In this document: one piece after another, positions 31,905-39,644 of the stretch
Position numbering within the stretch: the first letter of the stretch is position 1
Layout of the letters: each line of letters opens with the position of its first letter
Assembly: GCF_007004725.1 (NCBI RefSeq)
Contig: NZ_ML660161.1
Span: forward strand, 607,122-671,121
Direction of reading: 5' to 3'
From: Aliikangiella coralliicola
Lineage (GTDB): Bacteria > Pseudomonadota > Gammaproteobacteria > Enterobacterales > Kangiellaceae
DNA length: 64,000 bases
Translations under genes and position numbers: made by a program
The notes under the pieces: model-generated
Seen by the model: only the letters and a program-made list of their open reading frames with translations
Told to the model about the DNA's origin: nothing
The model's database searches: none

Positions 31905-33293
31905 TTAAGCTGCATTACAAAATCTTGCGGTAAAATGGCGTAACATCTGCGGCTCGTAGTTGAACTTAACCCCCCTGATTTTTTCAGCCCTTTGTTTTAC
32001 TGCACTTAAACAATCAGCGACATAATCCATATGATCATTCGTATAAACTCTTCGTGGAATTGTTAACCGCAGTAACTCCAGTGGAGATGATTTTTGCAAT
32101 CCTGTTTTAGGATCCCGCCCTAGAAGTAACGAACCTATTTCTACACCGCGGATCCCTCCTTCAAGATAGAGTTCATTCGCCAAAGCATGCGCTGGAAATT
32201 GATCGGGTGCAATGTGCGGTAGCATTTTGGCTGCGTCAACGAAAACTGCATGCCCGCCGGTTGGATATTGAATGGGGATTCCTGATTGATTCAGCCGGTA
32301 TCCTAGATACTCTACCTGTTTGATTCTGTAGTGTAAAAACTCTTCATCAGAAGCTTCCATTAATCCAATTGATAAAGCTTCCATATCACGACCGGCCATT
32401 CCACCATAAGTCACAAAGCCCTCCATTGGAACGCATCGCGTTTGTACTTCTCTAAATAAATCTTCGTCTTCTCGTATGCACAGAAGACCACCGATATTGA
32501 CCATTGGATCTTTTTTAGCTGACATGGTTAGCATATCGCCGTATTGGTACATTTCTCGAATAATTTCTCGAATAGTTGCGTTTTTATATTCCAACTCTCT
32601 TTGTTTAATAAACCAGGCGTTCTCACAAAATCGCGCTGAATCAATGATGACAGGAATATTATTTTTTTTAGCAATACTATAAACTTCTCGCATATTTTTC
32701 ATTGAAACAGGCTGTCCACCGCTACTGTTGCAGGTAATTGTTGTAACGATACCCGCGATATTTTCTGCACCATACTGCCAAATAGCCTGACGTAATTTTT
32801 CAAGATCAAAATTTCCTTTCCAGTCATGATAGGTTTGTGTGTCGAAGGCTTCCTCACAAACAATGTTTATGGGAGTTGCTCCACTCATCTCGACGTGTGC
32901 GGCTGTTGTGTCGAAGTGATAGTTAGAAAGAAAAATTGGGTTTTGGCTATTGCAACGCTGAACCAAACTCGGAAATAAGATTTGTTCGGCACCTCGACCT
33001 TGATGAACAGGTAAGGTGTGTTGATAATTAAAAAGCTCCTTAACAACGGAATCTAAATGATAATAATTACGACTACCTGCATAAGATTCGTCTCCGACCA
33101 TCAAACCCGCCCATTGCTCTTGGCTCATTGCACCGGTACCGCTATCGGTAAGTAGATCGATATACACATCTTCACTTTTCAATAAAAAAGGGTTCAATCC
33201 CGCTTCGTTAAGCGATCTTTTTCTATCGTCATAGCTTGTCATTTTAATGGTTTCAACCATTTTTATTCGGAAAGGTTCTGGGATTTTACGCAT
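31905..33293 (-). CDS. tnaA: Tryptophanase
   Basis: TnaA is a PLP-dependent lyase that splits L-tryptophan into indole, pyruvate and ammonia. Start at the second ATG (33293), which has AGGAG 8 bases upstream; the first ATG at 33299 is too close to it. The 462-residue protein has [14 protein letters not shown], the PLP lysine in M-S-A-K-K-D (Lys261) and [10 protein letters not shown]. Tyrosine phenol-lyase carries an M-E-R-G sequence with a substrate-binding Arg where this protein has V-E-I-G, so tryptophanase is the better call. No tnaB permease is adjacent. A TnaC-like leader lies 78 bp upstream. Confidence 0.92.
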
Positions 33294-33371
33294 GAGCATT
33301 TCTCCTGAAATAACAGAAAATAATTTTAAAAAGTTAATGACTAGTAAAAAATATTACTGAAGGAAAAATGG

Positions 33372-33461
33372 CTACTTTTGTGGAAAATCAAACACGAGCT
33401 TGTCGTCCAGAACATACCAGACACTTGGTAACAGACGATGAAGGATTGAATATAAACTCAT
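33372..33461 (-). CDS. tnaC: TnaC-like tryptophanase leader peptide
   Basis: A 29-codon frame directly upstream of tnaA on the same strand. It contains Trp15, Asp19, Lys21 and Pro27. The Trp-x3-Asp and Asp-x7-Pro spacings equal those of E. coli TnaC W12, D16 and P24, the residues needed for tryptophan-induced ribosome stalling; the stretch between (W-Y-V-L-D-D-K-L-V) matches W-F-N-I-D-N-K-I-V position by position in character. Two residues (Gln, Lys) follow the Pro before TAG. A sigma70-like promoter lies 39 bp upstream of its ATG. No strong Shine-Dalgarno is visible. Too short for routine gene calling. Confidence 0.8.
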   Translation of the reverse strand: MSLYSILHRLLPSVWYVLDDKLVFDFPQK

Positions 33462-33499
33462 TGAATAAGTATTATTTAGTTTCGCGATATTGATGATGT

Positions 33500-33528
33500 A
33501 AGGTAATAACTTTTTCACCACTTGTCAA
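33500..33528 (-). promoter_or_regulatory. Candidate promoter of tnaC-tnaA
   Basis: On the minus strand a perfect TTGACA (33523-33528), a 17-base spacer and TACCTT (33500-33505) would start transcription near 33493, about 32 bases before the tnaC ATG. The remaining gap to 33854 is AT-rich; I see no clear CRP site or other gene in it. Confidence 0.5.
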
Positions 33529-37530: not shown

Positions 37531-38481
37531 ATGATTACATTTATTGATAAACAAACAATAGAGAGCCACTTTGATTTTCCTGAGTTAATTGAGCGTTTAA
37601 GAAGCGCGTTTGCTCAATCAAATGTCGAGGTGCCAATGCGGCACCATCATGACTATGCCAACCCTCCTGAGGACAGAGAATCAACACTTTTATTGATGCC
37701 TGCATGGGATCCCGGTAAAGATTTAGGGGTAAAAATGGTAACTGTTTCGCCCAATAACGGTGACTATAATTTACCTTCAATTCAGGGTATTTACTTATTA
37801 TTTGATGCCCATAAAGGTAGCTGCAAGACATTATTAGATGCTAAGTCGCTGACCGCATACCGAACCGCTGCAACATCGGCATTGGCATCCAGTTATCTTT
37901 CTAGAGAGAATAGTCGTTGCCTGATGATGATTGGCACAGGAGCCTTATCATCAGTGCTAATCAAAGCGCACGCGGCGGTCCGTCCGATAGATAAAGTTAT
38001 CATTTGGGGCAGAGATCCATTAAAAGCTGAAGCATTGAAAAAGACACTTGTTGACGAACCATTTGAAATTGAGGTTGTGGAAACTATTGAAAGTGGTATC
38101 AAAAATGCGGATATCATTAGTTGCGCAACTTTAAGCGAAACGCCTTTGATTAACGGTGAATTACTCAAACCAGGTCAACATCTAGACATGGTTGGAGCCT
38201 ATCGACCAGATATGAGAGAGGCCGATGACCAATGTTTGCTCAGGAGTTCCATTTTTGTGGATCACTACGCTGGCGCACTCAAAGAAACCGGTGATATCGT
38301 GATACCTATGCAGCAGGGGATTATCCAGAGAGCCGACATCAAAGCCGAGCTTTTCGAGTTGTGCAAAGAAGCTGCGACCGGGCGAGAACATAGCGAAGAG
38401 ATTACTTTTTTTAAATCAGTTGGTCATGCGTTAGAAGACCTTGTTGCCGCGACTCTAATCGCAGAAAAAGTTAATCTTTGA
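37531..38481 (+). CDS. Ornithine cyclodeaminase/mu-crystallin family reductase, likely pyrroline-2-carboxylate reductase
   Basis: A 316-residue NAD(P)H-binding protein of the OCD/mu-crystallin superfamily. It has L-G-V-K-M-V-T-V-S-P-N-N, D-A-K-S-L-T-A-Y-R-T-A-A-T-S-A-L-A-S and the dinucleotide fold M-I-G-T-G-A-L-S, then W-G-R-D, and V-G-A-Y-R-P-D-M-R-E. Members convert ornithine to proline, or reduce delta1-pyrroline-2-carboxylate to L-proline. The next gene on the same strand (92 bp) is a trans-3-hydroxyproline dehydratase type, whose product is exactly that imine, so pyrroline-2-carboxylate reductase is the preferred call. Confidence 0.82.
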   Translation: MITFIDKQTIESHFDFPELIERLRSAFAQSNVEVPMRHHHDYANPPEDRESTLLLMPAWDPGKDLGVKMVTVSPNNGDYNLPSIQGIYLLFDAHKGSCKTLLDAKSLTAYRTAATSALASSYLSRENSRCLMMIGTGALSSVLIKAHAAVRPIDKVIIWGRDPLKAEALKKTLVDEPFEIEVVETIESGIKNADIISCATLSETPLINGELLKPGQHLDMVGAYRPDMREADDQCLLRSSIFVDHYAGALKETGDIVIPMQQGIIQRADIKAELFELCKEAATGREHSEEITFFKSVGHALEDLVAATLIAEKVNL

Positions 38482-38573
38482 GTTTATTTAAAGTGAATTA
38501 GCTGCCTGCTAGTACTCACCAGGATTAAGGTTTATTACTGTGAAATACCAATATGTTGAGGTGCTTTTGATTT

Positions 38574-39644
38574 ATGTCGAGTGATTTTATTAACCGGTTT
38601 AAGACCCAAACTGCATTTCGACCTTTATCTGACAGCCATATCATTGATGTGATCGATATGCATACGGGCGGAGAACCATTAAGGGTGGTTATTAATGGTT
38701 ATCCGCAAGTTCAGGCTGATTCGTTGCTTGAGTATCGAAAACAGCTAAAACAGAATTTTGATCATTTTAGAACGGCCATTATGTTTGAGCCGCGAGGCCA
38801 TGCGGATATGTATGGTTGTTTGTTATTACCACCGTTTAATAGTCAAGCAGATTGCAGTGCCATTTTTATGCACAATGAGGGTTACAGCAGCATGTGTGGC
38901 CATGCCGTTATCGGTATTATGACTTTAGCTATTCAAATGAATTGGGTGGAAGTTCACAACGATATCGCGGAGCTAACCATTGAAGCGCCATGTGGGCTAA
39001 TTAAAGCACGGGGTTGTGTGAATAATGGAGACCTAAGCGATATAACGGCTTCGTTTGAATGTGTTCCTTCCTTTGTCACTGGGTTAAATGAAAGCGTTCA
39101 TATCGAAAGTCTTTCTCAAAATATTCGATATGATCTGGCTTACGGTGGAGCGTTTTATGCTTATGTTGATGCAGAACAACTTGGCTTAGATTTAGTACCA
39201 GAAAATAATCGACAGTTAATTGAGTTGGGAACTGAAATCAAAAATGCGGTACTTGGTAGCAGTGAAAAAATCCTCCATCCTTACGAACCGGAACTTAGCT
39301 TTCTTTATGGGACTATTTTCATTGGCGGGCCTATTTCGGCTGGCGTTGATAGCAGAAATGTTTGCATATTCGCAGATGGGGAAGTAGACCGTTCACCAAC
39401 TGGTTCAGGGGTTTCTGGTCGCATGGCATTACATTATGCTAAAGGAGAAATCAAAATAGGCGAATCCATGAAAATTGAGAGTATTCTCGGCTCACAATTT
39501 ATCACTTCGGTACAGCGGGTAGAAGAGTTTGGCTCTTATCAGGCGGTGATTCCCAAAGTTTCAGGTAACGCTTTTGTTTGTGGTGTAAACCAATTAATTA
39601 TCAATCCAAATGATAAACTTCGAAACGGTTTTTTTCTGCGCTAA
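38574..39644 (+). CDS. Proline racemase-family trans-3-hydroxy-L-proline dehydratase
   Basis: A 356-residue protein of the proline racemase superfamily, with D-M-H-T-G-G-E-P near residue 28. Proline racemase and 4-hydroxyproline epimerase use two catalytic cysteines. Here the first is present (Cys108 in S-M-C-G-H) but the second is Thr276 in D-R-S-P-T-G-S-G. A Cys/Thr pair is the known signature of trans-3-hydroxy-L-proline dehydratases, which form delta1-pyrroline-2-carboxylate. The preceding gene can reduce that product to L-proline, which supports the call. Start at ATG 38574; the ribosome site is poor. Confidence 0.85.
   Translation: MSSDFINRFKTQTAFRPLSDSHIIDVIDMHTGGEPLRVVINGYPQVQADSLLEYRKQLKQNFDHFRTAIMFEPRGHADMYGCLLLPPFNSQADCSAIFMHNEGYSSMCGHAVIGIMTLAIQMNWVEVHNDIAELTIEAPCGLIKARGCVNNGDLSDITASFECVPSFVTGLNESVHIESLSQNIRYDLAYGGAFYAYVDAEQLGLDLVPENNRQLIELGTEIKNAVLGSSEKILHPYEPELSFLYGTIFIGGPISAGVDSRNVCIFADGEVDRSPTGSGVSGRMALHYAKGEIKIGESMKIESILGSQFITSVQRVEEFGSYQAVIPKVSGNAFVCGVNQLIINPNDKLRNGFFLR

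Follow-up and report, generated by a model that had tools for sequence, protein, structure and literature searches.

A predicted TnaC-type arrest leader upstream of tnaA in Aliikangiella coralliicola, and a conserved, predicted pairing of the tnaA Shine-Dalgarno sequence with the end of tnaC in its clade

The window analysed here is a 64,000-nucleotide stretch of the Aliikangiella coralliicola genome (contig NZ_ML660161.1, positions 607,122 to 671,121), whose minus strand carries a tryptophanase gene, tnaA. Directly upstream of tnaA and on the same strand, the position in which TnaC leaders are found, lies a short open reading frame (ORF) that we call tnaC. The features of the locus are the following.

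31905..33293, minus strand: tnaA, tryptophanase; likely start ATG 33293, start in the ORF list 33299
33372..33461, minus strand: tnaC, 29-codon leader ORF MSLYSILHRLLPSVWYVLDDKLVFDFPQK; ATG 33461, stop TAG 33374-33372; top match genome-wide of both TIGR02616 and profile A1
33405..33419, minus strand: codons 15-19 (W-Y-V-L-D), with W15 and D19 as predicted tryptophan-sensor residues
33381..33386, minus strand: codons 26-27 (F-P), predicted stalling end; F26 at the position of E. coli R23, P27 at that of P24
33361..33370, minus strand: anti-Shine-Dalgarno arm CATTTTTCCT, starting 1 nt past the tnaC stop codon
33297..33306, minus strand: Shine-Dalgarno (SD) arm AGGAGAAATG, with the SD AGGAG at 33306-33302; predicted to pair with 33370-33361
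33294..33371, minus strand: T-rich spacer of 78 nt between tnaC and tnaA; the listing for the minus strand contains no intrinsic terminator
33500..33528, minus strand: weak promoter-like TTGACA-N17-TACCTT; absent from the promoter-scan listing

The codons of W15 (33419-33417), D19 (33407-33405) and P27 (33383-33381) are separated by gaps of 4 residues from W15 to D19 and 12 from W15 to P27, distances shared by the E. coli-type frame of locus L048. W15, D19, L22 and P27 of the leader thereby stand in the register of W12, D16, I19 and P24 of Escherichia coli TnaC, and K21 and L22 correspond to K18 and I19, so that the I19 position holds one of the two residues, Ile or Leu, expected of a TnaC peptide. 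The original prediction of a 29-codon frame on the tnaA strand, with Trp, Asp and Pro spaced as in E. coli and a matching hydrophobic/Lys pattern between them, was thus correct in coordinates and register, and so was its leader-tnaA distance of about 78 bp: 78 nt separate the tnaC stop from ATG 33293, which sits 8 nt after AGGAG, and 72 nt separate it from the ORF-list start at 33299. The tnaA product scored 758.6 bits with TIGR02617 (E 2.8e-228), below the curated cut-off of 825.8. The gene seems to be alone, the next downstream ORF of at least 80 aa lying on the opposite strand. In common with E. coli TnaC, the leader peptide of tnaCAB (TIGR02616, PF08053), the window leader has its place before tnaA, the W/D/(I or L)/P register and a Lys after the Asp; it differs in Gln-Lys after the Pro, a UAG stop and a 78-nt spacer, and the locus differs in SD-anti-SD pairing at the tnaC stop and in having no tnaB directly after tnaA. 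Inside tnaA, on the opposite strand, a terminator-like stem followed by a T-run (33201-33214, plus strand) is probably due to chance.

Signals for expression of the leader itself are faint. The TTGACA and TACCTT hexamers, 17 nt apart, do lie where they had been reported, but as a promoter they are unconvincing, since TACCTT shares just 3 of its 6 bases with TATAAT and the promoter scan, which expected 3.8 better matches by chance, did not list the pair. No obvious SD precedes the tnaC ATG (GCGAAACTAAATAATACTTATTCA-ATG), and an Rfam scan of the whole window returned nothing but one tRNA. Because the best match to the CRP consensus has 3 mismatches in 10 positions, no CRP site is claimed.

The resemblance of the peptide to TnaC exceeds what base composition would provide. 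When the 450 nt preceding tnaA were dinucleotide-shuffled 20,000 times, the pattern W-x3-D-x7-P with at most 4 trailing residues arose once, and with L or I required at the I19 position it did not arise at all. A profile built from 107 distinct other leaders, the window's own excluded, placed the leader at the top of the 3,024 window frames (E 5.8e-5). The NCBIfam tnaC model TIGR02616 gave the peptide alone 22.8 bits (E 6.6e-5), 0.75 bit below its cut-off of 23.55. Over the whole 7.04-Mb genome, its best match was this leader (21.1 bits, E 0.004), as was that of profile A1, made from 32 other leaders (E 0.006), and the leader precedes the only clear tnaA of the genome. Pfam PF08053 (Tna_leader) scored it at 12.4 bits, below the cut-off of 25, and matched none of three other non-E. 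coli leaders tried. Cut-offs of curated models are naming thresholds, not biological defining features. Three further genome-wide matches to the TnaC models (L178, L179 and L180) were judged to be chance and set aside, because no large ORF lies close behind them on their strand. The host ribosome also retains the parts that form the tryptophan site of E. coli TnaC (uL22 K90 and 23S rRNA near 752 and 2609): its uL22 keeps the lysine used by TnaC (RAKGRAD, within ...TRAKGRADR...), and its 23S rRNA contains ACAGTTCGGTCC and the helix 35 loop GTTGAAAAA, the two segments that we take to be those near 752 and 2609 in E. coli numbering.

Conservation of the frame upstream of tnaA in relatives, which had been proposed as a check, was surveyed at loci gathered from genome sets with a match in 12 of 61, 71 of 394 and 3 of 369 genomes (the own genome included in the last), and from the best 80 of 296 places. 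This gave 170 loci, 164 with a TnaA match, of which 156 were distinct and usable; L001 (the same place as L003), L008 and L169 (254 and 0 nt of upstream sequence) and five loci with identical upstream DNA were dropped. To count as a leader, a frame had to contain W-x3-D and to stop 10-22 residues past the Trp and no more than 400 nt from tnaA; the TnaA identity cuts of 51.5% and 65% were picked after the values had been seen. Such a frame occurs at 139 of the 148 loci with TnaA at least 51.5% identical, against a mean of 7.9 in shuffled sequences and 11 on the opposite strand, and at none of the 8 more distant loci (TnaA below 51.5%). Among three of the distant proteins that were scanned, one scored above the tyrosine phenol-lyase cut-off and two above that of the broad tryptophanase subfamily only. 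The nine related loci without a leader include Xenorhabdus (L094), Vibrio ouci (L105) and three of Microbulbifer (L100, L125 and L128); at these, as at L038 and L039, no TnaC-like frame was found upstream of a tnaA of 60-72% identity, and the leader may there be lost, moved or different.

Trp and Asp are present in all 139 leaders by construction, W-x3-D having been the search pattern. The positions +7 and +11 lay outside that pattern, and among 64 distinct Pro-type cores the first, corresponding to I19, holds L or I in all 64 and the second, corresponding to E. coli R23, holds Phe in 58. The related leaders evolve as coding sequence, with in-frame pN/pS of 0.35 (P-type), 0.14 (K-type) and 0.24 (S-type) compared with 1.06-1.28 one base out of frame. 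Two traits of the window leader that had been singled out as odd proved to be ordinary. Residues beyond the Pro occur in 76 of 84 Pro-type leaders; they follow the Pro in Proteus vulgaris TnaC too, where arrest is therefore said to occur during elongation, and a 2009 paper on that peptide states in its title that tryptophan inhibits leader peptide elongation. As to the short spacer, among 89 loci with a TnaA identity of 65% or more, 36 have 100 nt or less and 10 have 78 nt or less; these lengths run to the position matching window 33299 in the alignment, by which the window itself counts as 72 nt.

Taken together, register, profile scores, gene context, conservation and the tryptophan-site signature of the host ribosome confirm, as far as sequence can, the proposed TnaC-type identity: the leader should be regarded as a genuine relative of E. 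coli TnaC. It is very probably a functional arrest leader, for which tryptophan-dependent arrest is predicted. In E. coli TnaC, replacement of R23 by Phe gives a response at lower tryptophan, a hypersensitivity described in the accessible part of PMC8429421, and since the window leader has Phe at that position (F26), it is predicted to be sensitive.

The tnaA gene itself has likely been gained by transfer. Searches of six genomes of the same genus revealed no close copy of it, and where a relative exists there, it is 48-50% identical; the nearest TnaA proteins among the best 80 of 296 places, at 72-74% identity, belong to Parendozoicomonas, Photobacterium, Vibrio and enterobacteria. In the same genus, the tryptophanase/tyrosine phenol-lyase-like genes at L007, L009 and L016 are closely preceded by a stem whose arms vary but stay complementary (such as GTTACTCC...GGAGTAAC), a possible RNA control element.

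The P24 position is the variable part of the family: of the 139 leaders, 84 have Pro there, 30 Lys, 17 Ser, 5 Leu and 3 Phe, so that 55 leaders lack the Pro but retain the Trp and Asp. The Pro-less leaders come from L027, L086, L119 and other Vibrio loci and from L134, L141, L150 and others, and they end in sequences such as LLSK..., LSSE or LHF. On the TnaA tree, a quick tree with many weak forks and with the window on a long branch, the states at this position need at least 7 changes. Replacement of P24 by Cys abolishes induction in E. coli TnaC, according to the available text of PMC10941005; the Pro-less leaders would therefore either stall through another end sequence or give no response, and they fit the idea of separate sensor and stalling domains put forward in that text. 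Vibrio cholerae likewise has an annotated TnaC leader ahead of tnaA, VCA0161.1, and the accessible portion of PMC4332508 passes over the missing Pro without remark. The presumed Vibrio leaders of that tnaA type end in LSSE without Pro, and VCA0161.1 is presumably one of them.

The end of tnaC may also pair with the start of tnaA. In the window, RNA at the tnaC stop is complementary to the tnaA SD over 10 bp (the arms listed above), and the spacer is predicted to fold at -13.5 kcal/mol (z -2.41) into a structure that closes the tnaA SD, a fold equalled by 7 of 200 shuffles. The duplex itself came to -12.5, and its own SD was the best of 55 SDs for the left arm, being preferred over the 54 others. 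For the duplex alone the value was 0.01 of 200; for closure of the SD, 27 of 500 shuffles were equally tight. Taken by itself, the window hairpin is thus beyond chance only modestly. Its geometry was examined with the ribosome footprint taken to reach 15 nt beyond the first P-site base. The partners of the SD GG lie 9-12 nt past the first base of the tnaC stop codon, and a ribosome stalled at P27 therefore overlaps only the base of the helix and opens the SD little, while the core is covered only from the stop; predicted SD openness is 0.02 in the free RNA, 0.09 with a ribosome at P27 and 0.20 with one at the stop. The window's own leader turned up in no relative among the loci collected, and covariation within it therefore cannot be shown.

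Across relatives the pairing can be followed. All loci were tested because the Vibrio leaders showed complementary sequences, GTTAATTTCCT across the tnaC stop and AGGAAATTAAC at the tnaA SD; representatives were used, and loci with overlapping arms were left out. For 55 representatives, the duplex of each stop region with its own SD reached -7.55 kcal/mol, compared with -5.38 when partners were permuted, and none of 5000 permutations was as low; the outcome was again 0 of 5000 with 72 and with 87 representatives. For 43 representatives whose TnaA is 65% or more identical, sliding the left window between -60 and +77 gave a signal over the stop codon only (z -5.3, -9.2 and -8.2), whereas 29 representatives of the E. 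coli-like clade gave none at the stop, their strongest window (z -3.5) lying at +12 to +29. The arms are lineage-specific, such as TTGATCCT/AGGATCAA in Enterovibrio, TTTAATCC/GGATTAAA in Shewanella, ATTCTCC/GGAGAAT in Citrobacter and TTTTGATTTCC/GGAAATCAAAA in Parendozoicomonas. An RNAalifold run on a MAFFT alignment of the K-type leaders returned an empty consensus with energy 0, in our belief because the loops do not align, and the pairing was therefore tested through matched versus permuted arms and in an ungapped register anchored at stop and SD. In that register, 243 of 286 positions pair in 26 distinct K-type (Vibrio) leaders, as many as in none of 2000 permutations, and the paired fraction of 0.85 compares with 0.30-0.60 when the arms are slid. 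Pairing with the own SD was non-significant in S-type leaders (279 of 2000 permutations as good), and a duplex weaker than -8 kcal/mol is seen in 20 of the 43 representatives above the 65% TnaA cut. Overall, the predicted pairing of stop and SD is a clade-wide, position-specific and covarying feature of the window's tnaA clade and not of the E. coli-like clade.

Fold predictions for the clade with TnaA at least 65% identical agree with a closed SD that a ribosome can open. The free SD is less open than in shuffled spacers (0.23 vs 0.34, p 0.0005). When the stretch that a ribosome at the stop would cover is blocked, SD openness rises from 0.23 to 0.41 (p 1.6e-5), compared with 0.34 to 0.35 in shuffled spacers; the E. 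coli-like clade shows no closure (0.28 vs 0.29 in shuffled spacers, p 0.42). In 12 strong Pro-type representatives, the footprint of the Pro stall overlaps the arm in all 12 and contains the partners of the SD GG in 8. Of 10 K-type leaders, a ribosome stalled at the stop would cover the pairing core in 9, and one stalled at the +12 codon in none. Locus L078 behaves contrary to unmasking, its SD openness falling from 0.16 free to 0.00 when blocked.

TnaC is a textbook example of a peptide sensing a free amino acid inside the ribosome: in E. coli it stalls ribosomes when tryptophan is plentiful and thereby switches tryptophanase on, and its output, known mainly from that species, is described as Rho-dependent transcription attenuation. 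For the window we propose that a ribosome which finishes tnaC and leaves would let the anti-SD arm close on the tnaA SD, so that tnaA would stay untranslated and Rho may then terminate the untranslated transcript. A ribosome stalled on or against the anti-SD arm would instead weaken or open the hairpin and allow translation of tnaA. TnaC would thus remain the sensor, and its output would be at least partly translational, supplementing or replacing the blocking of Rho. Sequestration of a downstream SD near the end of a leader, seen here in the fold predictions, is the mark of control of the SecM and Erm kind; in SecM-secA, the SD of the following gene is hidden in a stem-loop, which opens upon arrest in the preceding ORF, as related in the accessible part of PMC10501990. 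The output logic proposed here is the same, although SecM responds to secretion rather than to tryptophan, and the two leaders are not suggested to be related in sequence. The original expectation that attenuation may differ in detail from E. coli gains support from the complementarity of stop region and SD.

We therefore read the locus, with a modest leaning, as the tnaC leader of a tnaC-tnaA operon in which arrest works, at least in part, through release of the tnaA SD; that such unmasking is a main output step has, in this model, an even or slightly better chance. For the window, the unmasking output is held near even, because of the geometry at P27, the result for the +12 stall in K-type leaders and the behaviour of L078, and it is somewhat more probable for the clade. 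A wider reading, tentative and a little short of even, is that throughout the gammaproteobacterial tna clade that includes the window, TnaC arrest unmasks the tnaA SD instead of or besides excluding Rho, and that a modular peptide has kept its sensor W-x3-D-x2-L while the stalling end (Pro, LLSK, LSSE, LHF and others) was exchanged several times.

The output may instead be limited to that of E. coli: a ribosome halted at the end of tnaC would hide a Rho loading site in the spacer or early tnaA, and the SD pairing would be incidental. This is the characterised E. coli mechanism in the available text of PMC10941005 and PMC9071393; Rho is encoded in the genome (718.7 bits), the window hairpin by itself stays near the margin of chance, and its core lies outside the P27 footprint. 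An incidental pairing would, however, hardly be clade-wide, position-specific and covarying, nor would the window SD be expected to be the best of 55 for its left arm, and the 72-nt spacer stretch is just 14% C and 8% G. Short and C-poor as the spacer is for a classical rut site, Rho could act inside tnaA, and we regard a Rho-only output as rather unlikely, though it deserves to be taken seriously. It is improbable that, with TnaC functional, the stop-SD pairing serves another purpose, such as translational coupling of tnaC and tnaA, mRNA stability or a spacer-binding protein. Such a role would suit the K-type leaders, in which the anti-SD follows the stop codon rather than the +12 codon, and, in the accessible part of PMC7186457, ribosomal protein L4 of E. 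coli binds the spacer and lowers tnaA translation; it sits poorly with GG partners inside the Pro-stall footprint in two thirds of the strong Pro-type leaders and with the gain in SD openness when footprints are blocked. That the frame is a chance ORF or a decayed leader without function is the least credible account. The missing SD before its ATG, the weak promoter and the scores below the TIGR02616 and PF08053 cut-offs speak for it, and against it stand the rarity of the pattern in shuffles, the top genome-wide rank in two profiles at 72-78 nt from the only clear tnaA, and the same peptide pattern at nearly all related loci.

What is new here is the conserved pairing of the tnaC stop with the tnaA SD in the window's clade; the peptide itself belongs to the known TnaC family. 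A description of tnaA SD sequestration by tnaC was not found in the open-access literature, a weak negative, as older key J. Bacteriol. papers lie outside it. If unmasking holds for the sister clade, one sensor would be wired to two outputs, and the pairing together with the Pro-less leaders would offer natural mutants that separate the tryptophan-sensing from the stalling parts of TnaC.

Two observations concern other genes. In the own genome (contig C8, L002/L018), a tryptophanase-like domain (E 1.6e-35) lies in an open frame of 3642 aa, probably as a PLP domain of a giant synthetase-type protein, and similar long frames of 2937-7013 aa occur in three other genomes. Elsewhere in the window (37531-39644, plus strand), two adjacent ORFs, recognised by eye, resemble an ornithine cyclodeaminase-type enzyme and a proline racemase/hydroxyproline epimerase.
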